The notes beneath the pieces are model-generated. The model was not told the origin of the DNA. It saw only the letters and a list, made by a program, of their open reading frames with translations, and made no database searches. Shown here piece after piece: positions 3,429-63,668 of a DNA stretch of 64,000 nt; position 1 is the stretch's first letter, and the number at the start of each line of letters is the position of its first letter. Source of the DNA: Terfezia claveryi (lineage: Eukaryota > Ascomycota > Pezizomycetes > Pezizales > Pezizaceae); NCBI GenBank assembly GCA_015179025.1, contig WHUX01000071.1, forward strand, positions 186,001 through 250,000, written 5' to 3'. A program made the translations under genes and the position numbers.

Positions 3429-3429
3429 T

Positions 3430-28573: not shown

Positions 28574-28581
28574 TTTTACTC
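28574..28581 (+). repeat. 8-bp target-site duplication, left (TTTTACTC)
   Basis: Lies directly before the left terminal inverted repeat and is identical to 48411-48418, directly after the right one. Confidence 0.9.
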
Positions 28582-28833
28582 CACCTCTAGCATGCAGCTC
28601 GAACATTACTTAAGAATGGGGCAATTCTAAAATGCCCCCATTGTTAAGTAATGTACACGGCAGGGCAATCCCACCCGCGCTAAAATAACTTCTTGGCACA
28701 CATTATATCTTTAGGCTGGGTGGCGAAGACTGTTCGTGTGCGCAAACTTTAGTCTTCCGTGCTGATAATAAAGACTACTACGTGCCGTGCAATATTTGTC
28801 TTCCGTGTTGATAATGAAGACTGCTACGTGCCG
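28582..28833 (+). repeat. Left terminal inverted repeat (252 bp)
   Basis: Reverse complement of 48159-48410 with about ten mismatches, nearly all C/T or G/A. It starts CACCTCTAGC. It contains a near-palindrome ACATTACTTAAGAATGGGGC / CCCCATTGTTAAGTAATGT at 28603-28655, then GTCTTC-based repeats at the inner side. Confidence 0.9.
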
Positions 28834-28889
28834 TGCAATATTTGTCTTCCGTCTTGATAATGAAGACTACTACGTGCCGTGCAATATTT
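28752..28889 (+). repeat. Subterminal 46-bp tandem repeats, three units
   Basis: Units start at 28752, 28798 and 28844, with a fourth start at 28890. Each holds an inverted pair, GTCTTCC and GAAGAC, and the phrase CTACGTGCCGTGCAATATTT. The right end has about two units in inverse orientation. Likely transposase binding sites. Confidence 0.8.
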
Positions 28890-29602
28890 GTCTTCAAGCT
28901 GGAAATGTAGACTACCTGGCTCATTTAATAACATCATGATTATTTCACCTTCCACTCCGTGCTTGAAGATTTCACGTCACGTGCTCGATTTGAGCACTGC
29001 TGTCACCATGACATGATGGCTTCAACTCTACAATTGCGATTGAAGATGCTGACCGCCATCTTCTTCTCTATGGTCAATACTGCCTCCATTGCGTTTTCTA
29101 CTCCAATTGCGAAATTAAGACTAGGTGATTAAGACAATCTGTATTGTTCTCCCACCGCCCTGGGCTAGGTGCCCTTGACAAGTCAAGTAACTACCGTATA
29201 CATCTCGGCCTGTTGACTCCATATGAATTGATATGACTGTCAATGAATGTGTAATGTAATGTAATTTCAAGGGGCAGAATAAATCTACTCGAAAGATATT
29301 GAGTGATGTTATATGCACTGATATGTATGACCTGAATTATTGGTAGGGTATGATATGATGCTATATGTGTTCATATGACGGCATATTCCTACCTGGTTTT
29401 TTAGTGAACTATACATAGCATAGTTGCATATGTGTGCGAATTATTTTGCTTAGGTGGGTTGCTGACTGTTTATTTCTTTCTTCTCCTTCACCCAAACTTG
29501 GTATCCACATAGTATACACATATCCCTACACCACCCTGCCCTATATATCTCTATCACCGTGATCTTTTATACAACGCAACGATCGAATACCAATCACTAA
29601 AT
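28890..29602. other. Left subterminal non-coding region
   Basis: AT-rich, with several CATATGA/ATATGATATG motifs at 29220-29390. A TATA-like CCTATATATC at about 29541 lies about 60 bp before the first cargo gene. Confidence 0.5.
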
Positions 29603-30830
29603 ATGGAATGCCCAGTGCCTGGCTATACCAAATCCTATAAAGGGAAGTCGGCAAATAGCAGCTTACAGCAACACCTGAAGGCATCACACAAAGACTATGT
29701 ACTTCAGAGTAATGAACAACAGCCTGTACGAGACCCCAGGACCGTACGTAAAGAAATCAATGCTCGGTATAAAGCCAAATACCCTCGCCGTGGACTCGCC
29801 TTGACCAGGATGAAGCAAATCAAAGGTTTGGCTAAGAAGCTTTTAGAGAAGGAAAACCTAGCTCGGAAGCCTCAAAGATTGCTTCCACTAGTACTGAACG
29901 CAATAGTTGATGAAAGAAATATATATTGGATCTTAAAAGAGAGATATGGTCTGTTTGTGGGCAGGTTAAAAAGGATATATGATTGGAACCGGGTGGCGAA
30001 AGTATATATAGAGCGCAATTGGCATATATCATTCTGGATTGTTAACAGAAGCTATGTAGAAAGTTGCCCGATTCTCAAAGCAACCCATATTCGATGAGGA
30101 GGTTGGAGATGAATGGGAAGCATATTTGAGCTACAGCCTGCAGATCCTTGAATACCGAAGTCAAATGAAGGACTACCAGGCTTCAGAGGAAGCATTTGAT
30201 TATAGACTTCAACTTTGGAAAGAAGACTACACGGCCACCAGGACAACGCGAATTCAGGAGGAAGCCGAGATACTGTATAGACAGAAGTATGAGTCACAAT
30301 ACCAGGATGATTATGACTATGAAGCTGGGGATAATAGTACTACCGGTCCCAAGCATAGACCAAGCCTAGGCAAGAGCAACTATCCAGAACCTGACATTCT
30401 CCAGAGGTTTTAGCTTGGTGGGTACAAGGTATTTTGCCAGAGTTGGGCCGGTTGATAGTATCTGATGAATCTACACTTCTGCGTACTGCAACTAGACTTG
30501 GGATTCTTAGAGCGAATGAGGGGGCAGAAGCTGCTTTTACGAGTGAATGGTTAGGCCCAGGGTATTATGGTCATGAAGGTTTGTCTTACCTATGTTAACA
30601 CAGGTATATTAACTATTGCTAACAGTTTAAAAGCCGAGGATACACTTCTAGAACTAGCCTTCCAGGTCCAGGAAAGGATCCCGAAGGCTCTAATAGAAAC
30701 TACACCAGTAAGGTGGTTCCAATTTGTTGTAGTTCTGGAGTTACTGAATTTGTTGATTATGGAAGATCTCGAGATTGCATATGAGGAGGCAAATGAAGTG
30801 AGATTACAAAGTACAGTCGAAGAGTTGTAA
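29603..30830 (+). pseudogene. Cargo gene A: zinc-finger-like protein of unknown function
   Basis: ATG at 29603. The N-terminus (ECPVPGYTKSY, then LQQHLKASH) looks like a C2H2 finger in which the second Cys is Tyr (TAT; one transition from Cys). A basic region follows. Exon 1 is 29603-30001; an intron at 30002-30059 (58 bp, phase 0, GTATAT donor, GTTAAC branch, TGTAG acceptor) joins KRIYDWNRVAK to KVARFSKQPIFDEEV in one frame. Exon 2 runs to a TAG at 30411. Open protein-like sequence continues in a shifted frame (EVLAWWVQGILPELGRLIV) to about 30593, and again at 30600-30830 (AEDTLLELAFQVQE). I could not find clean splice sites there, so a frameshift or further introns are possible. The family is not recognised. 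Confidence 0.55.
30002..30059 (+). other. Intron of cargo gene A
   Basis: 58 bp, phase 0. Donor GTATAT, branch-like GTTAACA, acceptor TGTAG. Splicing removes frame-2 stops and joins two open frames. Confidence 0.65.
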
Positions 30831-30951
30831 GGAACCTGAGCAGGAGAGCGATTGTAGTTAGTATGCACTGCAATGGTTGTATATGGGTGGGAAGTTCTTG
30901 TAGTGGTAGCTCTCCTCCTACCTTAGTTAATAGTTATATATACCTAGTTGC

Positions 30952-31066
30952 GTACGGGTTTGGCAGATTAAGTTGCCTCACCATTGAATCCACCCGGGTT
31001 TCCGGGTGGCTCCTCATGGCCCCCCTGATAGGGCCGCATTGGAGTAACAAGTATATAAATAAAAAA
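30952..31066 (+). repeat. SINE-like repeat, copy 2
   Basis: A-box-like TGGCAGATTAAGTTG and B-box-like TTGAATCC are spaced as in tRNA-derived SINEs, followed by CCCGGGTTTCCGGGTGGCTC and an A-rich end. Matches 48950-49072 over about 115 bp and 15150-15240 over its 3' half. Confidence 0.55.
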
Positions 31067-31327
31067 AAGATTGCAGTGGTACCTAGCTCGAGAAATGTAA
31101 ATCGCTTATCGTGTTGCTACTATAAGGTTGTTTGTTAATGATAGGAGCCAAGCATTCATTAAATCTTGATTGTGTACTTATATTTGTGTATGTCCTCCTA
31201 TGTAGTTTGGTTATGTTTAATAATCACTGCTGCCTTTTCAACATTCTATAACAACCACATATTCCATCAGGCGAGGCCCTCGATAACTCACCAATACCCA
31301 TAGACACCCATCAGTAAATCAATTAGA

Positions 31328-32456
31328 ATGTCTAATGTTGAAGAAGTGGAAGGTGATGAGTTTGAAATCAAAAGCAAAGAGATTGTGGAAACCTTCGTTC
31401 AAGGAATTCGGGGTTTATGTGCTGAACAAGGAAAGGACTTCAGATATACAATGAATAATATCGTAAAGGGCCTACCTACTATAGCTATGAGAACCTGGAC
31501 ATATAAGCCAAATGCCTGGAACATGAGCCTGCGAGTGGCCGCAAAGGAGATGCTGGCCGAATTGAAGAAAGGTGGTAAAGAGCTACGAGGCCAACTGGCC
31601 AGGTATGCTAAGGAGCATGGATACACTGCGGAAAGAAAAGAGGAACTCGATACATGGTTGAAGCGGAGAAGCAAGATCTTGTTTATGGGGTTAAAATTAT
31701 CACAGACCCAGTAGTGAAGGCACGGAAAAAGGCCTTGAAAGCATTGTCCAACTTGGTAAGTAACTAGCCAATCGCAAAGCCAATCCGAAAGGGTACTGGT
31801 AGATAGAGCACTCTTAACTAACCTATACCTTACAGTGTAATTATGCTCAGGAGTTAGGGATTCATATAATCTTAATGGCAGCTTCTTCAGAAGATAAACT
31901 GCATATTGCAACTGAGGGGCTTGCGGAGAAGTTTGCTGTCCTCCAGGACATCAAAAAGGTTGGTATTCCGCAGTTTGAGCTGCTCATTCGTGGTGGAATG
32001 ATTGAAGAGGAAGCCAGGGAGGCTGTAGCTCAAAAAGTAGTTAAAAGTAGAGACCAAGCAAGGAAAGAATGTACTAATGCTTTACTGAAGGCAATAAGTG
32101 AGTTAGTCCTGTAATTCTCCCGGTCTCTAATACCTTTAACTTATACTACTTCAATCAAGACGAACAGATAAAACGCCCAAATAAACCGATGAAGTCAGTT
32201 CCACGCCAGTCAGGTATGTTTCTGGAGAGCCTAAAGAATGCTGGGCTGAGAGTGTCATGGCCAAGGAATGGGGGATCAACAAAGATGGAGAAGGTTGTTC
32301 AATCACAGGATGCTGGAATATCCGAGCAATCTTGAAGGCTTTGGCAGAGAAGCAGCTATAATTCAGTGAAGGCGAGAGTGATGATGTCAATATGGAAGAG
32401 CAGGATGTGGACAGTTGGGATGTGGAAGGCCAGGAAGGTGAGGAATAGGCCAATAG
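31328..32456 (+). pseudogene. Cargo gene B: unknown helical protein
   Basis: ATG 31328 opens an acidic, helix-rich protein (VEEVEGDEFEIKSKE, MLAELKKGGKELRGQL). At about 31655 the frame breaks; restoring it needs a one-base indel, after which VYGVKIITDPVVKARKKAL continues to a donor at 31756. Intron 31756-31835 (80 bp, GTAAGT, CTAAC, TTACAG, phase 0) joins SNL to CNYAQELGIHII. Exon 2 continues to about 32103 (AVAQKVVKSRDQARKEC). A further exon at about 32160-32456 reads VSGEPKECWAESVMAKEWG and AILKALAEKQL, broken by TAA codons at likely Gln codons, and ends acidic (DDVNMEEQDVDSWDVEGQ). No family recognised. Confidence 0.6.
31756..31835 (+). other. Intron of cargo gene B
   Basis: 80 bp with GTAAGT donor, TTAACTAAC branch region and CTTACAG acceptor. 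A near-ideal fungal intron. Confidence 0.8.
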
Positions 32457-32549
32457 CTTGTTGTGAGCTAATAGATTGTCGTTGTGTGGTTCATATATGA
32501 GTTTGATACTTAATATGTGCCAAGAAACAATTATTCTTTCTTACATAAC

Positions 32550-32805
32550 TGTCAAAAACAAAAAAAAAAAAGCCACCCTATACGGGTATTAAAAGAAATC
32601 AAACAAACCCTATGCAATCGAAAAAAAAAAAAAAAAATAAACAAAGCTACCCATTGCAACTACCTATTTAAAAGAAATAAAACAAAACAAGAAAAGAAAA
32701 AAGAATAAAAAAGAATAACAAAATAAAACAAAGACACCCCACGTCTCACTCATGAAAAAGAAAAAAAAGAATAACAAAACACCCCACGTATTACCATGAA
32801 AGAAA
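32550..32805 (+). repeat. A-rich, purine-rich low-complexity tract
   Basis: Runs of A with AAAGAAATAAAACAAAAC and AAAGAATAAC units, repeated in two blocks. The first two blocks contain TACGGGTATT and ACCCATTGCAACTACCTATT followed by AAAGAAAT, suggesting a diverged tandem repeat. Confidence 0.7.
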
Positions 32806-32818
32806 AGCAAATACAGAG

Positions 32819-33632
32819 CTAGAACTTCATTTGATCTAGTTGTGATTGAAGGTCCTGAACCTCCCTCTCAGAAATGTGCCCATATCTACGCTTTTTGGTC
32901 TGGGAATTCTTTGATGGTTTCTGAGATTTATTATGCGATTCACCCAATTCTGCAACATTTCCAGGGTGAAAGACTTCGGTCAATTTGGAATTTTGCACGG
33001 GGCTTTGGCTTCATTAGCTTAGTGATCTATGAAGGATTAGCTAGGGAATCTCTGATAGATCCAACGAGGGCAGAGACCATGCATGGAAGACTTCTTCGGG
33101 CATCTCGTCAATAAACATGCCAATCTCATGCCAGGCCCTAATTGCACCGGGCCTAGCTCTGGGACCACCGGGCCTAGATCTGGAAGAGCTTGGCCATGGT
33201 GTAGTTGGTCAAACAAGAGGAGTTGCGACCCCAATGGTTCTGAGTCTGAGATGCTGGTATTACTGCCTCAGGCTCATTTGGTATATTGAGTTCTTTTCGG
33301 CAATCATATCGAGAATTCCCTGTTGCAGTTCTTGTCGAGGGGCAGGTATGCGGCTATCAATCGCATCCTAAAATAAGTACTATTATATTAGTCTTTCTAT
33401 CCAAAAGTATAGATTTACTCGAGAGAGATCATACACAAAACCTTTATAGTTGATCACTCCAAGGCCTGAGTCGGCTTCTTAGATGATCAAATTCTTCTTT
33501 AGTTAGACTGGTCAGACTACCATCGCGTTCCTGGATGGTATCTGCAGCCTCCTGCACAATCTTGCTCCGAATGAGGTTCATAGGAACCCCCATTAAGTTT
33601 CGAGCCATTGTGCTAGAACCAGAATATGACAT
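32819..33632 (-). pseudogene. Cargo gene C: unknown protein, minus strand
   Basis: ATG at 33632 (MSYSGSSTMARNLMGVPMN). Exon 1 ends at 33435 and a 67-bp intron (33434-33368: GTATGA donor, ACTAAT branch, TTTTAG acceptor, phase 0) leads to exon 2, which keeps one frame to TAG 32819. Exon 2 contains DSRIPAPRQELQQGILDM, an Arg/Pro/Gly stretch, AWHEIGMFIDEMPEEVFHAW and a basic C-terminus (KKRRYGHISEREVQDLQSQL). In-frame stops occur in exon 1 (33444) and several times in exon 2 (including TAG at 33041), mostly at likely Gln or Arg codons; no indels are needed. Divergently placed from gene D with 437 bp between the starts. No family recognised. Confidence 0.6.
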
Positions 33633-34069
33633 TATTGTAATGTTGGCTAGTAGAGTGTAAGTGAGTGTGTCGGTGAAGTGACTGTGATGAGGTTGGTTTG
33701 AGTAGAGTAGAGTGGAGGCGTTACGGCATGATGTGTTTGGTAACTTACTATGGGATTTGGAGTCATATGAATATGAATGACAACACATGGAATTTCCACA
33801 AGGTTCTTGCAAGTCTGGCTTGCACTAGCCCCTCAGTAGGTGCTGATAAGAACCCGATATCAAACTTCTGGCTTTGGCGGTTTGTTTTCACCATACCACA
33901 CCCACAACCCTACAACCAGAGCCCAACCCACAACCAGAACAGACTCACCCCAACCTACTGGTACCAGTGCTTCATCTCCAATTTGTCCCACTACCGTGCA
34001 TCAACCCCGCATTCACCCACCACATCTACAATGATCCCCCCAATCTCTCAGTCACTGACAAAGAAGAAC
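33633..34069. promoter_or_regulatory. Divergent intergenic region between cargo genes C and D
   Basis: 437 bp between two head-to-head starts. Probably carries both promoters. The ORF 33698-34147 is the upstream extension of gene D's frame and is not needed. Confidence 0.4.
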
Positions 34070-34297
34070 ATGTCTAAAGTAGGTGCTAATACAACGAAAA
34101 GTAAATTTGACTGTGAAACTAATAAGGGAGGTTGTACTTTCTGTTGAAAACGAAAGTGCAAGGCTAAAGGCGAGACAAAGAAAATACAAAAGAGGCTACG
34201 CATGCAAATTGCAAATGAGCAAGACACTCCTGGAGCAACAGAGCCAACGGAGGAAGAAATGGGGAAGTGGATTCTAGCTCAAGAGCTTGGACGTGAG

Positions 34298-34346
34298 GTA
34301 AGGCATGAACCTAAGTTTAACATAATATGTCCTGACCTAGGAGCAG
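34298..34346 (+). other. Intron 1 of cargo gene D
   Basis: 49 bp, GTAAGG donor and GAGCAG acceptor, phase 0. Confidence 0.7.
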
Positions 34347-34505
34347 GTTTTTGCATTAGGGGATGATGAAGAAGCTATCCTGCGTGCGTATGTCTATGAC
34401 AATGGTTTGCGAGGAAGTAGGCCCAAAGAGCTATTTTTGGAACTCTTAAGCAAACTCAATGTCGAGGATATGCCACAGTTTGAAGGTCGTATTCAGAAAA
34501 TCAAG

Positions 34506-34589
34506 GTAAGTTACCGTGTTTCTATGCAGCATTGCCGTATCGTAGTAGGAAGCCTGCATAAAGTATTAACGGTGGAAGCTCGATAATAG
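34506..34589 (+). other. Intron 2 of cargo gene D
   Basis: 84 bp, GTAAGT donor, TATTAAC branch and AATAG acceptor, phase 0. Confidence 0.7.
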
Positions 34590-35012
34590 AACCGAATCCA
34601 GAATGAAGCTCGAATTGCAAATCAGATGGAGAAAATGGTCAAAGTTGAGGCTCTACAGGACATGACAATCCGGATGAGGGCATGGCTTTCCTCAATGAAA
34701 AAGAGGAAGGGAGGCGCAAATGCCCTGATGAGCCAAGGTCTATTTTGTTGGGATTCTGTATCGGTTGATGAAGGCATTGATATGCTAAACTCATTGAAGC
34801 AACAGATAGCCTCTTTGGATGGTGGTGAAGAGGCCCTTGTGGAGGCAGGGTTTCCTTAGTAGATATATAGGGCTTTTTTGCTTATAGTAGTTTCTTTTGT
34901 TTTTTGCAAAGCTAGTAATAGGGTATTAGCACTACAAGCACGAGGGCATGAGGGATTACCACTACACATGGGTATTAAGGAATCATATGTCTGTTCAATA
35001 AAAGCATATGGG

Positions 35013-35095
35013 AAAAAAAATTGCAGCGTCTTACAGAATCGAACTTGGGTACTAACAATTTACAAGTTAACAACTACCAACTAGGCCAAGTCACA
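35013..35095 (-). ncRNA. tRNA-like Pol III unit (tRNA-derived)
   Basis: On the minus strand there is a perfect A-box consensus, TGGCCTAGTTGG (35088-35077), a B-box-like AGTTCGATTCTG (35045-35034) 31 bp further on, and then a T8 run (35020-35013) that would end Pol III transcription. Spacing is as in a tRNA. The acceptor and T stems do not pair well, so this is a decayed tRNA or a tRNA-derived SINE head, not a normal tRNA. Confidence 0.45.
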
Positions 35096-35099
35096 CTAA

Positions 35100-35720
35100 A
35101 CAATTAATTTGTATTTAACTATTCTATATATATATTATAATAAAGATATATACTATATACCTACCATATACATCTCTAATACTTGAAACAACAACAAGCA
35201 AGAGAATTGTTTACAATAAGAAGTCTATAGCAGGCATTACTTAGATCTGATCCTGAAGTCTAAAAGATATAAACAATAGTAAGGTTGCTTTCTAAAGTTC
35301 AACTAACTTGAAGGTAAAAGTTATTTACTTAAAAACTATGAATACTAGCTAAAATATCTACATACTATGCAATTTACCATCATTAGTTTAAGGAATAGCA
35401 AATCAATTGTAAAACGAAAATTCTATTACTTAACCAGACTACTATTACTTCAAGAACTGAGACTGCCCAGGCAAATCGTACAATTGGATATTAAAAATTA
35501 CCATATTGGGACATGCCAAGACCGCACCTACGTACAAGACCTAAACCCTTGATGCGGCCTCGGCATTCACCCACATGCATGCACCCTCCAAGCCACCACC
35601 ACCCGTGACACCCCCATTCACTCACAACTTTTATCTAGTCTATGACCGATATATATAGTAAGGAGTGAGAGGGCCCTATTCCATCAACCATCTTGAGTAT
35701 CGTTGATATACTAATAGGAC
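35100..35720. other. AT-rich spacer inside the KDZ element
   Basis: Non-coding by eye. ORF 35367-35552 has no motif. A C-rich patch at 35570-35630 precedes the minisatellite. Confidence 0.4.
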
Positions 35721-37426
35721 GATACAGCCTGTTTTTTTCTATCGCACACGTAGGATGGGTTACGTGTGTGATACAGCTGTGTTTTTCTATCACACATAGG
35801 ACGGGTTACGTGTTGATACAGTCTGTGTTTTTCTATCACACACTAGGACGGGTTACGTGTGTGATACAGCTGTGTTTTTCTATCACACACGTAGGAGGGT
35901 TAGTGTGTGATACAGCCTGTGTTTTTCTATCACACACGTAGGACGGGTTACGTGTGTATATAGTCTGTGTTTTTCTATCACACACGTAGGACGGGTTACG
36001 TGTGTGATACAGCCTGTGTTTTTCTATCACACGTAGGAGGGTTACGTGTGTGATACAGTCTGTGTTTTTCTATCACACACGTAGGATGGGTTACGTATGT
36101 GATACAGCCTTGTTTTTTCTATGCACACTAGGACGGGTTACGTGTGTGATACAGTCTGTGTTTTTCTATCACACAGTAGGACGGGTTACTGTGTGATACA
36201 GCCTGTGTTTTTTCTATGACACACGTAGGACGGGTTACGTGTGTGATACAGTCTGTGTTTTTCTATCACACACGTAGGACGGGTTACGTATGTGATACAG
36301 CCTGTGTTTTTCTATCACACATAGGACGGGTTACGTGTGTGATACAGCCTGTGTTTTTCTATCACACAGTAGGACGGGTTATGTGTGTGATACAGTCTGT
36401 GTTTTTCTATCACACACGTAGGACGGGTTACGTATGTGATACAGTCTGTATTTTTCTATCACACACATAGGACGGGTTATGTGTGTGATACAGCCTATGT
36501 TTTTTCTATCACACACATAGGACGGGTTACGTGTGTGATACAGTCTGTGTTTTTCTATCACACACGTAGGACGGGTTACGTATGTGATACAGTCTGTATT
36601 TTTCTATCACACACATAGGACGGGTTATGTGTGTGATACAGCCTGTGTTTTTCTATCACACACATAGGACGGGTTACGTGTGTGATACAGTCTGTGTTTT
36701 TCTATCACACATGTAGGACGGGTTACGTGTGTGATACAGCCTGTGTTTTTTCTATCACATACGTAGGATGGGTTACGTTGTGATACAGCCTGTGTTTTTT
36801 CTATCGCACACATAGGACGGGTTACGTGTGTGATACAGCCTGTGTTTTTCTATCACACAGTAGGACGGGTTATGTGTGTGATACAGTCTGTGTTTTTCTA
36901 TCACACACGTAGGACGGGTTACGTGTGTGATACAGTCTGTTTTTTCTATCACACACGTAGGACGGGTTATGTGTGTGATACAGCCTGTGTTTTTTCTATC
37001 ACACACGTAGGACGGGTTACGTGTGTGATACAGTCTGTGTTTTTCTATCACACACGTAGGACGGGTTACGTATGTGATACAGTCTGTGTTTTTCTATCAC
37101 ACACATAGGACGGGTTAGTGTGTGATACAGCCTGTGTTTTTTCTATCACACACATAGGACGGGTTACGTGTGTGATACAGTCTGTGTTTTTCTATCACAC
37201 ACGTAGGACGGGTTACGTGTGTGATACAGCCTGTGTTTTTTCTATCACATACGTAGGATGGGTTACGTGTGTGATACAGTCTGTATTTTTCTATCGCACA
37301 CGTAGGACGGGTTACGTGTGTGATACAGCCTGTGTTTTTTCTATCACAACGTAGGACGGGTTATGTGTGTGATATAGTCTGTGTTTTTCTATCACACACG
37401 TAGGACGGGTTACGTGTGCGATACGA
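35721..37426. repeat. Hairpin minisatellite, about 34 units of about 49 bp
   Basis: Head-to-tail units with start GATACAG(C/T)CTGTG and the spacer GGACGGGT. Each unit contains TACGTGTGTGATA and, after a 15-base loop (CAG...TTTTTC), its exact reverse complement TATCACACACGTA. Units differ by C/T, A/G and 1-2-base indels. The array has no gaps over 1.7 kb. Short ORFs across it on both strands are repeats of the 49-bp unit and are not genes. Confidence 0.9.
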
Positions 37427-37865
37427 AGTGTCTTTTGTTTTTGAAGAGGCAAAAAGGTTCTTCTGGCCAAGGCGTTTAAATCAAAAAGAATTGGGGTAAT
37501 TCTCGCGGAACCTTTCTAGAAATGTATGGAACGTCTCAACTAAAAAGCAGGCTGAGGGGACGCATCGAAAAGAAAAGACCATGAAAGGAAGGTGTTGGAA
37601 ATAGTCAAGGACAGAAAGAAGTTCAGGGTAAGTGATAGAATGGAACTCGATTGTTTGTAGAATGTTCCTACAAGCAACCAGAACGTCGCGAACAACATGG
37701 AACATAAAAGGCAGAGTCACTCGGGCCCTCTAGAACCAAATGGGAGCTAGAAAGAATGAAGTGGACGATGCTAACCCACTCAAATTCGCCACACCCTTCA
37801 GTATAAATACCCCCGATCCCCTCCATCTTCCTTACAACATTCAAACACTATTTCTCCACACAACA
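37427..37865 (+). promoter_or_regulatory. Upstream region of cargo gene E with TATA box
   Basis: GTATAAATACCCC at 37801-37813 contains a consensus TATA box 57 bp before the ATG at 37866. No other TATA box in the element is so clear. Confidence 0.55.
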
Positions 37866-39122
37866 ATGTCCACCGAAATCATCAACATCGTAGGGAAGTT
37901 AGTGAAGAGGAGCCAAGGGCTCCGCGAAAGATATAGAAACAAGCTTGCTAAGCTCGATGGACCCGAAAGGTGGGAGTTAGCCTTGGAAGTTGCTAGGCTA
38001 ACTCAAGAACAGACGGAACAGATCTCATTTGCAGCACAGGTCCAGAAGGAGGTCATCGAGGCCTGGACAGACGAAGACTATGCAGCAATGCAAGTAGATA
38101 GGGTGACTGCTGACGCTAAGCTCGGCTTCACCTCAATCATCCTCCCCTTAGCGGACATCCATTCAGAGTCGGAGCGAAGGAAAGGTAAGGCAAAGGACAG
38201 GCTGGAAGCAACCTGAGGCACGCAGTGGGAAGACCAGGTAGGGGACCTCATGCCGCCATGGCTGGCCGAGGAGTTTCTAAGGGAGCTTGTGGTGTTCTTG
38301 GAGAAACAAGTGGATTGGGCAGCAGTAAAGCTTATTTTGGAGGCTAGGGTTAAAGAGCGGCTGGCCGCTAAGAAGACAAAGAAAGTTGCTTGGCTAACCT
38401 CGCGTAATATAGCTGATAGAGCTATATCAGAAAGACGCAAAGCGAGAGGGAAGAAGGCTGTGGCTGGTTCACAGCCGGAAACTGATATTGGGGAAAATTC
38501 CGCTGGTCGGATAACCCCGGTTAGGGAAAATTCCGCTGGTAGGATAACCCTGGTTGGGGAAAATTCCGCTGGTCGGATACAAAGCCCCGCTGGCTGGGCA
38601 CCTATAGATACCCAGACCTTACTTTCTCCTTCTCAACTTTCTTCTTCTTCTGTTAGTGAAGCTGCTGCCCAAGATCCAAACGTGGATCTTGAGAACATTG
38701 ACAAGGAACTTCCTGGATCTGAGCCGGTTGTGGAAACGAAGAGGTCGATCCCCCACGGATCTTTTATATCACCCCCGAAGGAAGCTGAAGCTGAATCTGG
38801 AGCCGAGCCTAGACTGAGCGAAGAGGTGAGAATGGATAAAGGTAAGGGTAGGGCAGTTGATGCAGGAGAAGTGAAGGAAGCAGAGGCTGCCCCTAAGACT
38901 CGCAAACGTAAGAGAGCTGCAAATGAGGTCGAAAAGAGCACCGTGGAAAAGAGGAGGAAATATGGGTTAGAAATCCCCATTATTAACTTAGACGTAGAGG
39001 AGGGGGTGGAAGAACTAAAGCGTGAGGTGCTTGATGAGGAAGAGAAGGACGAAGCTTTGGCTGTAGAGGAAGCTGTTAAAGTGTTATTTGGGGGAAGGGA
39101 CGGCCGGATAAGGAAACGGTAA
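37866..39122 (+). pseudogene. Cargo gene E: Glu/Lys-rich unknown protein
   Basis: ATG 37866 (MSTEIINIVGKLVKRSQGLR) opens a frame that reaches 39122 with a single TGA at 38214-38216. The N-terminal 115 residues are helical (DGPERWELALEVARLTQEQ). The middle part has MPPWLAEEFLRELVVFLEKQ and a Lys/Arg-rich patch. Three copies of a 14-15-residue repeat containing ENSAGRI occur at 38493-38580. The rest is highly charged with KTRKRKRAANEVEKSTVEKR as a likely nuclear localisation signal. A 41-bp GT...AG segment over the TGA shifts the frame, so an intron does not explain the stop. Family not recognised. Confidence 0.6.
38490..38580 (+). repeat. In-frame tandem repeat in cargo gene E, three units
   Basis: GGGAAAATTCCGCTGGT plus CGGATAACCC-like spacer, repeated three times with about 39-42 bp between starts. 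Confidence 0.75.
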
Positions 39123-39185
39123 GGAGGATGTTGAGGAAGATGATGAAGGTGATGAAGGCGGAAGTGGTAGAGGTGGATGATGATT

Positions 39186-39222
39186 GATCACACACGTAGT
39201 AGGATTACATGTGCGATGGGAA
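39186..39222. repeat. Isolated diverged unit of the hairpin minisatellite
   Basis: ATCACACACGTAGTAGGATT and then ACATGTGCGATGGG keep the arms and spacer of the 35721-37426 unit. It lies 3' of gene E, so this gene is bracketed by the repeat. Confidence 0.55.
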
Positions 39223-39868
39223 AAGTGATGAGAAAGGAGTTGATTACGGTTTCCTTTGTTTTATTTGTATAGTTATAATATACTTTATCATCAATATACG
39301 CATCGTTCTTCTTCGCAGTATTCGACCAGGTCTTGGCATGAGACTCGTGCACTCGTATATATTTGTAACATTCATAGCCACCTATCACCCACACACCTAC
39401 ACACACTTTAGAGATCTCTCATCATGAGAGATACCACAACAGTTATTGTCCTCCGGAAAGGGGTAAGACCCAAACCAAAGAAGCTAATAGGGAAACAATT
39501 AAAGAAGTATTTTGATTCTCAGCTTGATGATGCATATGAAATAATGAATTCCTTAAGGATTCAACTAATACCAAACCTCCAGTTAAGGTCTGCCAACCAG
39601 GAGAGGGAATGGGTCAACTTAGAAGCCAATGATCTTGGCAATACTCTTGATGAAAACAATGAAGAGGATCCAATATTGATGGCTCGGTGCCTACTTCAGA
39701 CCGATTCTAATTCTATAAAGAGGAGGAATGCCAAAAATAGAGAACAGTTGGCACAGAACTGGAGCAAAGTCAGGCCAATGATGGTTCAGTATGCCACCGG
39801 AAGAGCTTTACCAGAGTGTGACTGCCAGGAAAGAAAGGAGAAGGTGATAACCATAATATCATTGACTG

Positions 39869-39929
39869 GTAAGTAGACAAGATACTACAGATATCCTAGT
39901 AGTTTAAAGCTAACTAGTTTCCAACGCAG
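39869..39929 (+). other. Intron 1 of the KDZ transposase gene
   Basis: 61 bp, phase 1. GTAAGT donor, GCTAAC branch, ACGCAG acceptor. Confidence 0.75.
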
Positions 39930-40810
39930 AGATAAAGAAGATATCCTATAGTTTTTGTAACTATAGGCAGCGTAGTGCTAAACTATTCTATGACAACAAA
40001 TTCCCTTCCAAACCTCTTCGTGCCTCTATAGTTTTCGATATATGGCTTCTGCAACTATTACATGAACAGCTGTATCAGGAAGAATATTTTTTTGCTTCCT
40101 GTCAGCTTCATATTAGCTTTATGGAGGTTATTTAAAGCTTCAGAAGCTTAATGAGTAAATTTTTGTACAAAATAACTCAGGAAGCTATCTTTTGCAAAAC
40201 TTCTTCTCAGTAAGCTCCAGAAGCTAAATTGCAAAACTTTTTCTTCCCTGATGTGATTCATAGAATTGGCCGAATTCATGCATGGAGTAGAGGATTACAG
40301 AGCTGCTTAGAAGCCAATTCGCCAGAGGTAGTGCCTGATTTCTATAGATCAGTAGGCTTCAATTTTTACCTATGCCCAACTCACACTTTAGAATTGAAAC
40401 TTACTTTAATGTACTCATAGCTCCTAGATGCATATCATAACTGGAGGGCTGTGAGTTCGGAGTGCAAGAAGTTTGTAGCAACGACTCTGGCTCAAACAGC
40501 CGCAGAACATTGCTGGGATGCCGGTGCTTTTGAAAACTTATGTCCTGCATGTTTCAACTTCTCTCCGGATGACAGAAATGGCCTGCAGGTATATAGAGGT
40601 GAAGATCAAGGCCCCTTGAATGACCAGACTAGCTCTCCAGAAGGAAAGGTTGAATATAATATTGTATTCGTTTCAATAGATGGGGACATGCAACTTACCC
40701 GGTTTAAGGATGTCACCAGTCATAAAACCCATTTCCAAGAGTGGGAAGTTCTTCTAAGCAAACTTTTTGTTAATATCGATAGGCGATTTTATGGTACATC
40801 TAGCCAACCA

Positions 40811-40815
40811 GACCC
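40811..40815 (+). repeat. 5-bp target duplication of the copia element, left (GACCC)
   Basis: Identical to 45558-45562. Confidence 0.95.
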
Positions 40816-41089
40816 TGTAGAAACTGAGCAGTGGTCACACTGCAATGTATACGGAGGAGAAGAGATATATATTTGCAATAATACTTCACATACAGAAGGG
40901 CAGACAACATCAGCTTAAATACATGAACAATAGTACCAAGCATACTGATCACAAGAAATGGTAACATTAATGAAAACTTTTGTTCTTCAGCATTCTTGCC
41001 TGATCTGGTCTTGCCCTTCACTCTTGATCCGGATCCGGCCTTGTCCTTGATATCCCGCTTCCTACTTAGCCGGCAATTATTCTTCAACA
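40816..41089 (-). repeat. 3' LTR of the copia element (274 bp)
   Basis: In element direction starts TGTTGAAGAATAATTGCC and ends TTTCTACA. Just upstream in element direction is the polypurine tract TTAGAGGGGGG. Confidence 0.95.
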
Positions 41090-41096
41090 CCCCCCT

Positions 41097-44000
41097 CTAA
41101 TTGCTAGCTGCCTTCACACCTGCATTTACAGCAAGACACATCAATCGTTCTCCTGTTACACACTTTGTCAGCATATCTGTCGGATTCTCTTCACCAGGCA
41201 CCCAATGCACCCTTAGCAATCCTTCTTCCACGCATTCCCATACAAAGTGATGTCGTCGCCGAATATGTTTCGTTCATTTGTGAAAGTCTGGATTATATGA
41301 GAGATTTGCCCCTCCTCTACTGTCTGTCCACAGCCAAATTTTAGACTTAACACCGCAATGATCCAGCAACTTTCCAATCCATAGTGCATCTTGTGCCCCT
41401 GCCCCCATGGCAATATATTCCGCCTCTGTGGATGACAACGTAGTCACATCCTGCTTTCTGGAGGTCTATCCTATTGGTGACTTCCCAGCCATGATCAAAA
41501 TTCCACTTGTTGCCTTCTGCTCTAATGCTTCTTCTTCCGCATCAGTATAGATATCGATATGTCTCATGTCTTCTCCTTTGAAACTTATTTCTAGGTCTCT
41601 TGTTCCCAGCAAATATGCAATAACCTTGAGTGCCTTTCGCCGGTCATGAGCTGAAGGCTTGGATACCACAATGGATAGTCTTTGGACTGCATAGCGAATA
41701 TTAGGTCGCCACATTCGAGCAATGTATAGGAGCCACCCTGTTATTGCCTGGAATTCCTGAATATCGCACTTGTCTCGTATCTCCTGCAGTCCATCCTCCA
41801 AGTAGGGGCTTTTTGCCATATGACCTATCTTGACTTCTCTTGCCAGCTCCTCAATCTGATCTGCCCCTGTTATGACCACCTCGTCTTTGTGCCATGTAAA
41901 TGTCATCCCCAAATAGCGCTGTGGCAGGCCTCGTTCTTCTAGTGTAAAGAATTTTCTCATAGCTTCTTCCCAATCACTTGCTGTCTTATAGGTTGAAAAG
42001 CCACATAGAAGATCATTGACATGGATTACTATCAGTTCTCCATTTGATAGTCAATAATATAGCCCTAAGTCGTCTTTGCATTGGACAAATCCCAAGCCCT
42101 TTAGAATATCATCAATCACCTTATTCCAATTATGTGCTGCTTGCTTTGTTCCATAAAGCGACTTCTTGAGCAACCATGCCTTGTTTCCTGTAGCTTGCCG
42201 ATCAACTACATATAGGACTTCTTCAAGAGGCCAATTAAGGAAAGCACCTTCAATATCATATTGCCGCATGATTAGCTTGTTTTTAATACTGATATAGAGC
42301 AAGATTCGCCAGGTCTCCTCACGACAAACTGGGGCATAGGTTCCATGGAGGTCATAGTCTATACCTGCCTTCTGCGAAAAACCTCTAGCTGTCAGACGAG
42401 CTTTGAAACGCTTTGGATCATTGAGCGCTTTATCGGTTTTTTCTCTCAGCACCCACTTGGTGATTATCTTAGCTCCTTCAGGTACCTTATCCACCCACTC
42501 ATAAACCTCATATTTAGTGACAAGCTCGAGTTCTCTTTTAATAGCTTGCTCCCATTTACTCTTATCTGATAAGCTAAGGGCTTCGCTCATTGTCAGATAG
42601 CTTTCGGAAATATGCCCATAAGCTGGGTCTTGGTCTAGCCGTTTGGGAGGAACACCAGCTGTACTTCTAGCAGTACGTCGTGGCATGGATGAAGTTGGTG
42701 CAGCGGCTTCTGTAGCTTCTGAGGACATTGATCCAGGAGCGAGCTGTATTTCCTGCAAGAGCTGTTCGTTCGCTTCTCGGTCATTTCGCATGGTTTCGAG
42801 TACTACTGGCCATGTGTCGGCATATTTCCTCCACTGCAGGGGCGAATCATTTGGTAGCTGAATTGAGGCTGACGAGCTGGCTAGTGAATTAGCTGGCAAA
42901 TTGACTGGCAAATTGGCTGGTGAAGTAGCTGGCGAGTTGATCGGTAAATTAACTAGCGAATTATCTGGCCAATTGCCTGGCAAATTGGCCAACAAGTTGG
43001 CTGGTGAATTGGCTGGCAAACTGGCTGGCGAATCATTTGGTAGCTGAATTGAGGCTGACGAGCTGGCTAGTGAATTTGCTGGCAAACTGGCTGGCGAATT
43101 AGCTGGCGATGTAGTAATGATTCTCATATCAGATGAGTGCTTTGTCTTGGATATAGGGTTTTTTGCTATAGTGACTCGTTTTGATGGCAAAATAACCTTG
43201 TAGACGCCATATGTAGAAGTATATCCCACTATCTTTGCTTCTATTGCTCTATCAGTGAGTTTACTATCTGTGTAAACATGGCAGTAGACAATTTCCCCAA
43301 AAGGCCTGAAACGCCCTCGCTCTTTCTGGATGTCTATTTCTGGCTTGATCTTCTGCAGCGGAGCATCTCCGTTTAGTGATGCATGTGGAATTCGATTTTT
43401 AATAAAGGTAGCATACTCCATTGCTAGAGACCAAGTGGAGTTTGGCATTCCTTTCAAATTGGTGCGGACCATTGTCATGATGGTTCAATTAGTCCTCTCT
43501 GTGACTGCATTTGTCTCACTATGGTGGGGTACTGTAGGTTTTTCACTAATTCCTTGTGTTGCAAGCCATTGCTGAAACTTGATAGATTTGAACTCTCCTC
43601 CGAAGTCAGTCTATAGTGATTGGATTTTTGTGCCAGTGAGATTGGCAAAGTATGACATTATATGTTGGAGGGCTTCAGCTGCATCAGATTTTGAGGCAAT
43701 GGCTTGAGTGATTGTAAATCGTAAGAAATCGTCTATGAGTGTAATCATATATCTTCGATAGCAGAGATCTTCTACAGGCATAGGCCCGCAAAGGTCGGAA
43801 TGAACGAGCTGGCCTGGTCTAGATGTCCTTATATTGTGTGCCATGGACTGGGGGCGAGTCATTTTGGTTGTAATACATGTTTCGCATTATTAGGTGCAAT
43901 GGCTGAGGTGCTTGGGTGCCTCGGATATTTTTCTGAATGCAGAGAAGGGAAGGTGCCCATACCTGATATGCCATCCCATGGCTTCTTGCTCTGTCAAGTG

Positions 44001-45233
44001 AATTTGAGGAACCTCTAACCGATATATATCATTTACTGTGGTGAGTAGGATAACTTGATCTTGAAATATCAGGGTATTCTGAGTGCCTAGAGCAAGTGTT
44101 GCTCCTTGCTGGCAGATCTTTGCTATACTTATAAGGTTTCGAGGGAAACCTGGCACATAGAGAACATTGTCAAGAGTCATTTTTCCAATTTTTACTGACC
44201 CCTTATGAGTAGAGTAAATGCTTCCTCCCCCAGTTCGAACTAACTGATGATGTTGGTGAGGGTCAATGAGCTCGGTCTTGTTATTAGTAATATGGACGGA
44301 TGCGCATGTATCTGCTAACCAAGTATTGGTTGATGTTGCTGTCAAATCGGTGGTTGTCATATCGCAGAAAGTATCCCAAATTTCACTGGACTGAGTGATA
44401 TGGGCTGCTAGAGGAGTACCATTCCTTAAGGCATCTCGCCTCTTAGTTCTGCAATCCTTCTCTTCATGAGATGTTCCAGGCCATCCTTTGCTTTTGCAAT
44501 ATTGACACTTTACTGGTAGGTTAGTAATTGCGAAAGCTGAGGCAGGCTCTTGAGGTGTATCTCTTCTTGGGCGAGCTTTAAGGTGATCTGATAGCTCACA
44601 AAGTCGGAGTGCGACATCGGCATAAGAGGGAGTAGCGGTTCCTCCTGTCAAATTCATGATGAGATTCTGATATACTGAGATATAAGGGAGTGTAGACAAT
44701 AGCATGGTTGCTTTCCATCCATCATAGCTAATAAAGCTCTTGATGGTGCTAGCAAGACTGGAGGTATCAGAAGGAACTGTAGCCACGTTGGCTAACAGGA
44801 GGTTCCATTTATTTTCGAACTTCATAATGTGTTGAGTCAAAGTGTCCTTTCTATCATCGAAATGAAGATTAGTGATTGCAAGAAGCAGCGCGGACATGTG
44901 TGTGCAAGTGCATCCTTCATAGTGTGATTTCAGGGTCCCCCAAGCATTGAGTGCATTAGGGGAGATACGAATGAGTGACAATGGTTCTGAATCGCAATTC
45001 GCCATAATGGTAGCTAGAGCTTTGTCGGAGAGCTGTTGATATATCTTCGTTGGTGGTTCGGGGGCTACACCCTCGACAGGGTCTATAGCCTTATCGAGAT
45101 CAGTGAGTCAGAGAAGCATTATTACTTCCATGGACCATGAGCTATAATTGTTCTCATCTTTGAAGTTCTCGGTAGCCTTCGGTGGCTTGAATGGGGTATG
45201 CGAGGTAGTGGCCGGTGCCATTTCGGATGTCAT
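41097..45233 (-). pseudogene. copia gag-pol polyprotein, one frame with stops
   Basis: From ATG 45233 to TAG 41097 one frame (about 1379 codons) encodes gag (UBN2-like, LNAWGTLKSHYEG), a zinc knuckle (CQYCKSKG...HEEKDC), protease (WLADTCASVHI), integrase HHCC and core (LIDDFLRFT), a linker of SPANL repeats, reverse transcriptase (KARLTARGFSQK, APVCREETWRI, SLYGTKQAAHNWNK) and RNase H (LSSTEAEYIAMGAGAQ, WTDS). Stops include a TGA near 45108, TAATAA at about 43887-43892, TAG 43611, TGA 42051, TAG 41466 and one TGA in RNase H. The protease triad DTG is DTC, and the reverse transcriptase VDDL motif is VNDL, so even read-through protein would be inactive. No indels are needed. Confidence 0.9.
42862..43110 (-). 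repeat. 15-bp repeats (SPANL type) in copia linker
   Basis: Many degenerate 15-bp units encode SPANL/SPASL between integrase and reverse transcriptase. A longer block containing ASSSASIQLPND occurs twice. Confidence 0.8.
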
Positions 45234-45271
45234 GCTGAACTTATGAATAGTATTGATTGATTAAGAAAGAT

Positions 45272-45283
45272 GTGTTGCTACCA
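45272..45283 (-). promoter_or_regulatory. Primer-binding site of the copia element
   Basis: TGGTAGCAACAC directly after the 5' LTR. The first seven bases match the complement of the initiator methionine tRNA 3' end (S. cerevisiae: TGGTAGCGCC), the usual copia-class primer. Confidence 0.7.
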
Positions 45284-45557
45284 TGTAGAAACCGAGCAGT
45301 GGTCGCACTGCAATGTATACGGAGGAGAAGAGATATATATTTGCAATAATACTTCATATACAGAAGGGCAGACAACATCAGCTTAAATACATGAACAACA
45401 GCACCAAGCATACTGATCACGAGAAATGGTAACATTAATGAAAACTTTTGTTCTTCTGCGTTCTTGCCTGATCTGGTCTTGCCCTTCACTCTTGATCCGG
45501 ATCTGGCCTTGTCCTTGATATCCCGCTTCCTACTTAGCCGGCAATTATTCTTCAACA
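45284..45557 (-). repeat. 5' LTR of the copia element (274 bp)
   Basis: Same borders as 40816-41089. The next bases in element direction (45283 downward) read TGGTAGCAACAC. Confidence 0.95.
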
Positions 45558-45562
45558 GACCC
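45558..45562 (+). repeat. 5-bp target duplication of the copia element, right (GACCC)
   Basis: Identical to 40811-40815. Confidence 0.95.
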
Positions 45563-45869
45563 TAGTGATGAAGGACAACCAATTGAAGCTGAAGTGGAAG
45601 AGCCTGACCAGTGTGCAAGCCAGTTTAAAGCCTCCAGGGGATGGGAAAGTAGTACATCTACAAAGGAGTTAGCATCACTGAAGAGTTTTGATGAGACAGG
45701 GTTAATGGGTATGGTTTGTCGCCATGGCTGTCTACTCTGGTACCTGAATATATATACTAGAGAGCGGGCAAGACATGGTATTGCCCTGCTGCAAAGCCTG
45801 CTCAAGGATCTACCCAGCGGCACAAAAATACGTAGTTGCTATGATATCTCATGTATATTTGCTACTACG

Positions 45870-45944
45870 GTCAAGGCAGGTTACCACCGTCTCTTTGTTA
45901 TCCCCGCTATTCACACTGAATTTATACTGAAGATGTTTTCTTAG
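45870..45944 (+). other. Intron of the KDZ transposase gene
   Basis: 75 bp; donor GTCAAG (weak), acceptor TTCTTAG. Joining in phase 0 gives SCIFATT then RLALKLAS and leads in frame to GRFHMYAHEYKCHV. Confidence 0.5.
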
Positions 45945-46372
45945 AGGCTAGCACTAAAACTGGCCTCAGTTTTGACCTACCCAGTTGGGAGATTTCATAT
46001 GTATGCACATGAATACAAATGTCATGTGTTGTACAATACTCAATGCTTGATGGGTTGGGGAAACATGATAGGTGAAGAGTGCGAATCTGATTGGTTGCTA
46101 AAAGGCCATCTTGTCGCCTCAACACGCGTTTCCTCAGCTCCTAGAAGGCGGTAACGAATTGATGATCATGCTTGCTTTGTGGTTAACATGACTCATGAGA
46201 GATTAGGCTATAGGCTAGGTCACCGGCTTACTAAGGCCCAGGTAGATCTAAAAGCCTCATTAGCCATTTTGGAACGCCTTTACACGCAAAATAACAGGAA
46301 GGGAACTAAGTTCACCGAAGAGTATTTTGACATCCAAGTAGGGCTGCAAGAGGTATACTATCGGGAAAACAG

Positions 46373-46439
46373 GTAAATAGCAGGAGCTCAGGGGCCAGCT
46401 TACATGGATATTTGGTTAAATAACTAATGTAAATTTTAG
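46373..46439 (+). other. Intron of the KDZ transposase gene
   Basis: 67 bp, phase 2. GTAAAT donor, AACTAATG branch, TTTTAG acceptor. Confidence 0.7.
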
Positions 46440-47300
46440 AAACAAAGCTGAGCCTGTACTAGATCCTAATGATGCAATTTTTACTGCTATTCTGAATGAA
46501 GAGGAGATTCTCAGGGACTTAGAAGAGGATAGACAGGCTGGTATTTCTACTCGTCGAAAGCTCCCTCCACCGAATCAAAAGCTTGACCGGAGAGACCTCG
46601 AACAAGTATCAAAAGGGCATGCTGCAGTCCGCAGAACAACACAGCTTCTTACTTAACAACACTAGACCATTGATGACTGGGTGGATCGGCAAGCACCTGA
46701 TAGTAAATACAAGATATACGAAAACAGGAAGATCATGCGAGAACTACACAATATTCAGCGAGGGTTAATACAAAACACAATCGCACGGAAAAAGGAGCTT
46801 GAAGCAATCAGGAGTAGAGTTGGCCATAAGAACTCTAAGAAGTTCATGACTTGCCTTAATTAACGTTGGAAGGCAGTTAATATTGGCATAGCTGAATTCA
46901 ACGAGCTTATAGAAAAATTACCTATTGAGCAACGCCCTAAAGAGCTAGATATACGAAAAATAAAGAAGGAAGGGTTGACTTTAGATACGTTCTGGGATGT
47001 AAATTGTGTAAGGATTACAGATGACTGGGCATGCCAGGAAGTAGTTTGTGAGGGCATTGCAGCACTTTTTCGTCAAACGAGCTCAGGAAGAGATCATCCG
47101 CATAGGCATTGAGATAGCCAAAGTTTTTGATTGGATTGGTAAGGAGACATATGGAGCTACACATTCTGATACCAATGGTTGGCTGCGCCCATGGACAGTC
47201 CAGCGTCTCCGGCATCTACAGAATATTGTGACAGGCTTTCTCAAAGCTCAAGCAAGATATAGGCTTGAAATAAGCAAAACACAACGAACAATGATTATGG

Positions 47301-47373
47301 GTGAGTGGAGTGGAGTGGAGTGGTGGCACGACCTGCTAAGCTACAAAGTGACTAACCTAATATTCTAATATAG
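47301..47373 (+). other. Last intron of the KDZ transposase gene
   Basis: 73 bp, phase 1. GTGAGT donor, GACTAAC branch, AATATAG acceptor. Followed by an acidic last exon. Confidence 0.75.
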
Positions 47374-47594
47374 AACTTCAGAACAGAATCTACACTATGC
47401 TTACCAGTATATGGAGTGCGGGTATAGAGGTCAAGGAATGTATAGAAGAGGAAGATTTTGGTGATAATGATGAGGTCATTGGAGAACTGTTGGCATGAGA
47501 AGCTGTCAGGGACTTTGATTGAATTGTGAAGTTTTTACGTTTTATTTTTTAAGACATGGCTATAGATTTGAGTTCATAATAATTATGTAGCTGA

Positions 47595-47960
47595 AGCTAC
47601 GAAACCATCATATAAAGGTATATTGTCCCGTAAAAGCATATACATATGAGACCTGCACTTGCCCGGCAAGACCGAATAAGCCGGCAAGACCAAATAAGCC
47701 GGCAAGACCGAATAAGCCATTATATGAAGGCATATCGTCCCATATAAGACTTGCACTTGCCGGCAAGACCAAATTAAGCCATCATATGAAGGCATATCGT
47801 CCCATATAAGACTTACACTTGCCGGCAAGACCGAATTAAGCCATCATATGAAGGCATATCATCCCATATAAGTATATATATATAAGACCTGTACTTGCAT
47901 TGGCCTAGCAACACCGTATAAGCCACCATATGAAGCCGTATAGTCTGGTACAAGCGTATA
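47595..47960. repeat. Right subterminal tandem repeats, about five units
   Basis: Units of about 55-65 bp with CATCATATGAAGGCATATCG, CCCATATAAGACTTGCACTT and GCCGGCAAGACC. One unit has an internal expansion of CCGGCAAGACCGAATAAG three times. Confidence 0.8.
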
Positions 47961-48158
47961 TATAATGGTATCATGTGGAAAAGAATATTGCCGTGGCTGA
48001 TGAAAATCTCAAAAACTATGAAGAGAATCAGATAATATATTAGGTTTAGATCATGGGAAGTGAATAGCACGCATATCTCACGTGGTGAGGATAAGCTCAA
48101 CTTAATCAGATTCTTTTGCTAGTGTGTGCATTTCATAAGGGGTGGACTAATCTGAAGA

Positions 48159-48410
48159 CGGCACGTAGCAGTCTTCATTATCAACACGGAAGACAAATAT
48201 TGCACAGCACGTAGTAGTCTTTATTATCAGCATGGAAGACTAAAGTTTGCGCGCACGAACAGTCTTCGCCACCCAGCCTGAAGACATAATGTGTGCCAAG
48301 AAGTTATTTTAGCACGGGGGGGATTGCCCTGCCATGTACATTACTTAACAATGGGGACATTTTAGAATTGCCCCATTCTTAAGTAATGTTCGAGCTGCAT
48401 GCTAGAGGTG
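48159..48410 (-). repeat. Right terminal inverted repeat (252 bp)
   Basis: Reverse complement of 28582-28833. Ends GCTAGAGGTG at 48410. Confidence 0.9.
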
Positions 48411-48418
48411 TTTTACTC
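48411..48418 (+). repeat. 8-bp target-site duplication, right (TTTTACTC)
   Basis: Identical to 28574-28581. Confidence 0.9.
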
Positions 48419-48949: not shown

Positions 48950-49072
48950 TATATTTAGCGCCGGACCTGGCAGATTAACTTGCCTTGTCCTTGAATCCAT
49001 CCGGGTTTCCGGGTAGCTCGTCATGGTCCCTCTAACGGGACTACATATGAGTAGTGAAGATTTTCTGAAAAA
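48950..49072 (+). repeat. SINE-like repeat, copy 3
   Basis: TGGCAGATTAACTTGCCTTG and then TTGAATCCATCCGGGTTTCC match 30952-31066, with CGTCATGGTCCC and an A-rich end (GAAAAAAAGTG). Pol III A- and B-box-like motifs are in the same order. Confidence 0.55.
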
Positions 49073-49074
49073 AA

Positions 49075-63491: not shown

Positions 63492-63668
63492 GGTGTCCGC
63501 AGTGAGGTAAATGTCGATGATGGTGTTGTGATAGTTGTCGAAGTCGGTCTGATTTTTTGGGATTAGCAGTACTTGCCAGGCTTGGAACCTAGCTCCTAGG
63601 AGCGTAGGAGTGGTTTCTTGAGTTGCTATAATGTGGACGTACCAGTTGGTCAGGGCGATCCAACGTAG

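Follow-up and report, generated by a model that had tools for sequence, protein, structure and literature searches.

A putative self-targeting module shared between a KDZ transposon and an unrelated transposon in Terfezia claveryi

KDZ1 of Cryptococcus is a transposon of about 11 kb with 241-bp inverted repeats and 8-bp target duplications (accessible part of PMC12810828). Other fungal KDZ elements carry a TET/JBP dioxygenase, their cargo has passed between transposon superfamilies, and Dileera also makes 8-bp duplications (accessible part of PMC12730594). In Arabidopsis, the accessory protein VANC binds tandem arrays of short motifs in the noncoding DNA of its transposon and evolves together with the motif (accessible part of PMC5735166). 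Here we compare with these systems a KDZ transposon in a 64,000-nucleotide stretch of the Terfezia claveryi genome (the window), which is part of contig C679 in an assembly of 72.56 Mb and 794 contigs. An initial annotation of the window had proposed a 19.8-kb KDZ-type transposon in an ascomycete host, and the host is indeed the ascomycete T. claveryi, given as haploid in the accessible part of PMC13152902. Its suggestion that a cargo-bearing KDZ element with mapped ends would be new does not stand, such elements being already published (PMC12810828, PMC12730594, in their accessible parts). Our main subject is a module within the element, consisting of an array of 49-bp palindromic units, a gene that we call gene D and one palindrome at the gene D stop codon, which together lie upstream of the KDZ transposase. 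Taken overall, the locus is probably best explained as a KDZ transposon whose module derives from an unrelated transposon, element X, and encodes a self-targeting regulatory or anti-silencing protein.

The same module stands downstream of the unrelated transposase of element X. On contig C96, DNA that is 88–95% identical to the KDZ array and gene D follows an 843-codon open frame that gives no KDZ match, and a protein search yielded a relative of this transposase, P0042, of 1,115 amino acids. C-terminal ends of transposase X were located at seven loci, and at six of them (C96, C117, C784, C645, C44 and C79) gene D follows on the same strand after 673–2,495 bp. That KDZ and X share the module is nearly certain. 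Directly before the KDZ array, moreover, there is a 63-bp relic that matches C96:83038-83101, inside the coding end of transposase X, over 64 alignment columns; the sequence reads SGPIPPTILNIVDVLPGRY in X and EGPIPSTILSIVDILIGRY in KDZ. The alignment scores 85; none of 500 plain shuffles exceeds 31, and other windows of the element reach 28. Because P0042 keeps the relic stretch inside a full-length protein, the simplest reading is that KDZ received this stretch from an X-type element, and the sequences make this direction likely.

Gene D is 440 amino acids long in the sister copy on contig C38; the window match stops at residue 420 and contains one TGA and one TAA. Homologs comprise at least 38 proteins, including those of Terfezia boudieri and Tirmania nivea, and distant paralogs are 41–51% identical. 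A genome search gives at least 123 match rows for gene D, far above the count for the KDZ domain (at least nine rows, with no match in any of 14 control genomes). Among the matches listed, no gene D stands near C257:397275-397940, where the KDZ domain scores best in this genome, as would be expected if one KDZ lineage acquired the module.

The palindrome of the array, which we call the ACA type, occurs genome-wide at 293 sites with up to three mismatches, compared with none for the reversed control, and a single palindrome also precedes transposase X, at C96:79006. On contig C747, a gene D that is 46% identical over 394 codons stands beside three copies of a different palindrome in the same layout. 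This second, TT type has the form ATCACTTACGT-N11-ACGTAAGTGAT. A search that excluded the ACA type found 20 TT-type sites at 12 loci (control 0), and a relaxed search of the 72.6 Mb found 23 sites at 13 loci (control 1). At 12 of these 13 loci the palindromes are upstream of a correctly oriented gene D, at a distance of 640–1,040 bp, a placement with a binomial chance of ∼1e-36 given an assumed upstream space of 60 kb, which was fixed before the distances were measured. In its most likely identity, the module is a putative self-targeting regulatory or anti-silencing one. The fuller proposal, which we advance tentatively, is that a mobile self-targeting module, made up of a DNA-binding regulatory or anti-silencing protein and its own palindromic array, co-diverges as a pair and may move from one transposon superfamily to an unrelated one, in this case from X to KDZ.

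Under this proposal, recombination would have introduced into KDZ a copy of the module of an X-type element. The product of gene D would act in the nucleus, where it would bind the palindromes and either activate the adjoining transposase along with gene D itself or shield both from methylation-based silencing. Tandem arrays would heighten binding specificity, and the protein and its palindrome site would co-evolve. The KDZ transposase, judging from its family, would excise the element at the 253-bp repeats and integrate it at a staggered cut of 8 bp. What the sequences show is an element of 14.4–15.1 kb that inserted with target duplications of 8 bp, and whose copy in the window was afterwards disrupted by Copia, by a 183-bp insertion and by C-to-T decay.

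A number of observations weigh against this proposal. Gene D has no recognized DNA-binding domain and no Pfam family above cut-off. Its structure model is poor (pLDDT 51, pTM 0.25), suggesting with low confidence that the N-terminal half and the tail are helical and the middle is disordered, and it matches no known fold, the PDB fold search returning nothing below E 7. One PDB sequence search gave a single match at E 0.23 and another gave none, leaving gene D without a solved relative; an NCBIfam search was uninformative. For the gene D copies of KDZ and X, the numbers of nonsynonymous and synonymous substitutions per site (dN and dS), at 0.076 and 0.206 by NG86 and 0.082 and 0.163 by YN00 over 412 codons, are in themselves a point in favor of the proposal, but they come from a single pair and are blurred by C-to-T decay. 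As for the palindromes, only four units of the window array have both 13-bp arms intact, the TT-type palindromes on C144 (62826 and 62898) are 34 kb from the nearest listed gene D, and an exact TT-type site accompanies only 11 of the 39 N-terminus-reaching gene D rows outside KDZ/X loci, plus C445, in a count that covers exact sites and not mismatched ones. With regard to element X, the transposase at C79 is a decayed 31% match, and the transposase X end at C645:115416 has no listed gene D.

A passive module is a reading that we also take seriously, though we hold it to be doubtful: gene D would be an ordinary accessory gene, the palindromes would be host-factor sites that drive it, and gene D would not be the binder. 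It agrees with the missing DNA-binding domain and solved relative, and the palindrome arms hold an ACGT core of a kind bound by host factors. It agrees less well with the way in which palindrome type tracks gene D, ACA accompanying the KDZ and X copies and TT the distant paralogs, since a shared host factor would presumably favor one site, or with the single palindrome that precedes both transposases. The two naturally diverged gene and site pairs occur in one genome, so the idea of binding is directly testable.

It is improbable, in our view, that the palindromes on either side of gene D serve chiefly for recombination, by which the module would spread between elements, with regulation secondary. 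The layout of the KDZ module would suit such a role, as the array comes before gene D and a palindrome lies at its stop, near which the C96 homology ends. However, the left edge of the shared DNA is outside the array, inside the X transposase gene, so that this edge is not at a palindrome, and the distance from TT-type palindromes to gene D stays within 640–1,040 bp even in distant paralogs. We regard it as very unlikely that the sharing between KDZ and X arose in the assembly through the joining of unrelated repeats. Several KDZ copies do run to contig ends, and contig C546 repeats the window locus with an altered interior, departing from it at a Copia long terminal repeat (LTR), but the order of transposase X and gene D recurs at six loci, and gene D accompanies KDZ ends or transposase in several copies.

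The coordinates of the window features are collected in Table 1.

Table 1. Features of the window element, its module and the insertions that it carries (positions in the window).
Feature	Coordinates	Strand	Remarks
8-bp target site duplication, left	28574..28581		TTTTACTC
Terminal inverted repeat, left	28582..28834	+	starts CACCTCTAGC
Accessory gene 1	29603..30827	+	C2H2-like finger (weak, E 0.34) and RTC4-like PF14474 (1.1e-9) on the C38 model; exon limits modelled
Accessory gene 2	31328..32500	+	prediction only; end uncertain; no domain in the part scanned
Accessory gene 3	33040..33632	-	prediction only; limits uncertain; no domain found
Accessory gene 4	34148..34859	+	prediction only; limits uncertain; three pieces scanned, Pfam matches all sub-threshold
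Relic of element X transposase 3' coding end	35650..35712	+	read on C38; window coordinates by alignment
49-bp tandem array, 35.1 units	35721..37424	+	palindrome TATCACACACGTA-N8-TACGTGTGTGATA
Gene D	37866..39187	+	end placed by alignment to C38
Single palindrome, somewhat degenerate	39186..39219		at gene D stop codon, ∼205 bp upstream of KDZ transposase ATG
KDZ transposase exon 1	39424..39868	+	
KDZ transposase exon 2	39930..40351	+	contains 183-bp insertion (∼40071-40253); CxC1 domain spans exon 1/2 junction
KDZ transposase exon 3, before Copia	40421..40815	+	CPACF, DGDMQLTRF; includes GACCC
Copia 5-bp target duplication, copy 1	40811..40815		GACCC
Nested Copia LTR retrotransposon	40816..45557	-	RVT_2, gag_2 and Pol_BBD matches; paired LTRs
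Copia 5-bp target duplication, copy 2	45558..45562		GACCC
KDZ transposase exon 3, after Copia	45558..45875	+	YDISC
KDZ transposase exon 4	45945..46372	+	YAHEYKC
KDZ transposase exon 5	46440..47300	+	stop codons and frame loss in window copy
KDZ transposase exon 6	47374..47508	+	
Terminal inverted repeat, right	48158..48410	-	ends GCTAGAGGTG
8-bp target site duplication, right	48411..48418		TTTTACTC

The inverted repeats, described initially as 252 bp long, are present and measure 253 bp, with 244 of 253 positions identical and transitions at eight of the nine differences. The exact 8-bp duplication claimed for both flanks is likewise found, and TTTTACTC occurs elsewhere in the window once on the forward strand, at 51433, and nowhere on the opposite strand. 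When the element end is mapped across the whole genome, as the initial annotation had proposed, it recurs in 88 match rows, of which many are partial or overlap one another. Four placed elements, the window included, have both ends together with the same interior, which is the opposite of ends occurring independently; two of the four, on C257, may be recombinant or misjoined. The ends are not a product of chance, as indicated by their genome-wide recurrence, by 8-bp duplications peculiar to other copies and by uninterrupted target sites. Direct pairs of 8-bp duplications, a length within the 7 or 8 bp of the KDZ superfamily, are seen at C679 and C38 (GATTTCGG on both flanks of C38), and the left flank of C43 pairs with the right flank of C676. 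The C257 copies (C257:167485-181868 and 295902-310323) are in opposite orientation, and GATCACTC and TAATATAT are exchanged between them, which points either to recombination between the inverted copies, with inversion of 114 kb, or to a mis-join in the assembly.

Insertion is precise, as in the KDZ superfamily, when judged by empty sites, all of which are paralogous repeats in one genome rather than other individuals or species. For the C38 insertion, which by eye sits in a Copia-type integrase gene, all eight loci cut were uninterrupted, four with the exact 8-mer and four with one substitution. For C43/C676, all four sites fetched of nine full-length rows were uninterrupted, each with one substitution. 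The window insertion is in a repeat that is ∼80% identical among copies, and the five best paralogous loci gave three with the single, exact TTTTACTC, one with one substitution and one that had diverged. In addition, C38:2394-2928 forms a 535-bp inverted repeat because the left end carries right-end sequence, and C43, C211, C240, C552 and C736 share this C38-type left-end structure.

The assignment of the transposase to the KDZ type, also proposed initially, is borne out by profile matches to KDZ (PF18758, 1.9e-34, above cut-off) and CxC1 (PF18802, 2.8e-7, 31.0 bits against a cut-off of 26.9) in the first 777 residues of the spliced C38 transposase, and the window exon after Copia itself matches KDZ at 1.8e-14. 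The underlying model has six exons, with splice sites picked by eye on C38, and 938 codons including one stop. The motif blocks reported initially are in frame in the window (CPACF at 40541, DGDMQLTRF at 40679, YDISC at 45840 and YAHEYKC at 46002, with CRHG in the reading frame 45519-45944), and the DGD and YDISC blocks are candidates for two of the residues of the acidic catalytic triad. No working transposase is expected from the window copy, given its several stop codons and frame loss. Among four aligned copies, C/T differences number 207 at CpA, 198 at CpG, 41 at CpC and 27 at CpT, which corresponds to 10%, 21%, 3% and 1% of sites, respectively, and the window copy has 188 private T/A as opposed to four private C/G. 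In sequence terms, this C-to-T decay is a pattern resembling repeat-induced point mutation (RIP) or methylation.

Inside the transposase is a Copia LTR retrotransposon with gag and reverse transcriptase domains, paired LTRs (40816-41089 and 45284-45557; 274 bp, 265 of 274 identical) and a 5-bp duplication; 5-bp target duplications are usual for Copia. Both the KDZ identity and the nested Copia are nearly certain. The gap between the two transposase segments of the initial annotation is this Copia element, and 28574-48418 is therefore a nest of two elements. The copies on C38 and C14 and the two on C257 are continuous across the insertion point. The 19.8-kb size was thus inflated by 4.74 kb of Copia; the element without Copia and one GACCC measures 15,082 bp (∼15.1 kb), and three complete sister copies are 14,377, 14,384 and 14,422 bp long. 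Once the 183-bp insertion in the window transposase is allowed for, the length difference from the C257 copies is mostly tandem-array length, and C38 has a longer left end. We reject as scarcely credible the notion that the entire 19.8-kb span is a single very large KDZ element, even though one inverted-repeat pair and one 8-bp duplication enclose it, because the Copia with its own LTRs and duplication lies within the transposase and is absent from four sister copies.

The 183-bp insertion in exon 2 has ends resembling those of a miniature inverted-repeat transposable element by eye (TATCAGGAAGAA / TTCTTCCCTGATG) and is absent from three aligned sister copies. C546, an 18-kb contig, repeats window 40815-50609 in its positions 1-9748 and diverges from the window beyond the Copia LTR. 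The flank is identical at 2198 of 2199 positions, the KDZ part has 76 differences (65 transitions) and the Copia part 57 (52 transitions). C546 represents either a second nucleus in which mutation was limited to repeats or an artefact of the assembly.

As to the rest of the cargo, five extra genes had been claimed; five candidate accessory genes can indeed be counted, but only two are supported from outside the element. Accessory gene 1 has genome matches on 17 contigs, 15 of which also carry KDZ ends; PADLOC gave nothing useful for it, and a literature search found no paper linking an RTC4-like domain with transposition. The cargo proteins scanned gave no Pfam match to TET/JBP, a diverged PE type of which may escape Pfam, and genes 2-4 are partly modelled. 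Elsewhere in the window, 59302-63998 on the - strand holds Ty3/Gypsy-type integrase, RNase H, reverse transcriptase and gag domains, and two open frames on the + strand (16628-18592, 655 codons; 21974-23122, 383 codons) have no Pfam match at 0.001.

Element X bears some likeness to Plavaka / EnSpm (CMCT), in that CRGC and HNPLH in P0042 resemble, by eye, the C(2)C and H(3-4)H motifs (accessible part of PMC12730594). It differs in that neither P0042 nor the C96 frame has a Pfam Plavaka match, and we rejected the filing of element X under Plavaka on this ground. Plavaka (PF18759) is a large family in T. claveryi, with at least 127 match rows (123 of 598 candidates scored), and the element X loci are not among the matches listed. 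Nor is Plavaka supported as the carrier of TT-type gene D, the nearest listed matches being 8.2 kb (C138) and 14.6 kb (C679) away with 123 of the 598 candidates scored.

Literature searches found no report of the module, its palindromes or the relic among the titles and opening lines of abstracts that they listed; subscription papers were outside their coverage, and absence from print is thus unproven. Like the window element, KDZ1, KDZ2 and KDZ3 of Cryptococcus have a KDZ and CxC1 transposase, inverted repeats (241, 139 and 169 bp), lengths of about 9-11 kb and target duplications of 8 bp, with 4-8 bp for KDZ2 and KDZ3 (accessible part of PMC12810828). They differ in their basidiomycete host and in having been shown to move, and the accessible part of that paper mentions neither a palindrome array nor gene D. 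TET/JBP-bearing KDZ elements likewise exchange cargo genes across transposon superfamilies, and the accessible part of PMC12730594 describes for its best case a shared segment with neither inverted nor direct repeats nor palindromes at its edges. In the truffle, by contrast, the shared cargo is gene D, and a relic points to the transfer direction. If our explanation is right, gene D would add a further exchangeable transposon cargo beside TET/JBP, the relic would be a sequence trace that reveals the direction of transfer between unrelated transposons, and the module may illustrate how transposons swap tools.

VANDAL elements are Mutator-like rather than KDZ transposons. No VANC-related domain appeared in a Pfam scan of gene D, in which no direct comparison with the VANC protein was made. 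VANC binding has been measured, with the 9-base motif YAGTATTAY for VANC21 (accessible part of PMC5735166), whereas that of gene D is a prediction. What the two systems have in common is a transposon-encoded accessory protein tied to its own tandem motif arrays, and the co-divergence of the two (accessible part of PMC5735166), so that the truffle module, if correctly read, would be a fungal counterpart of plant transposon anti-silencing.

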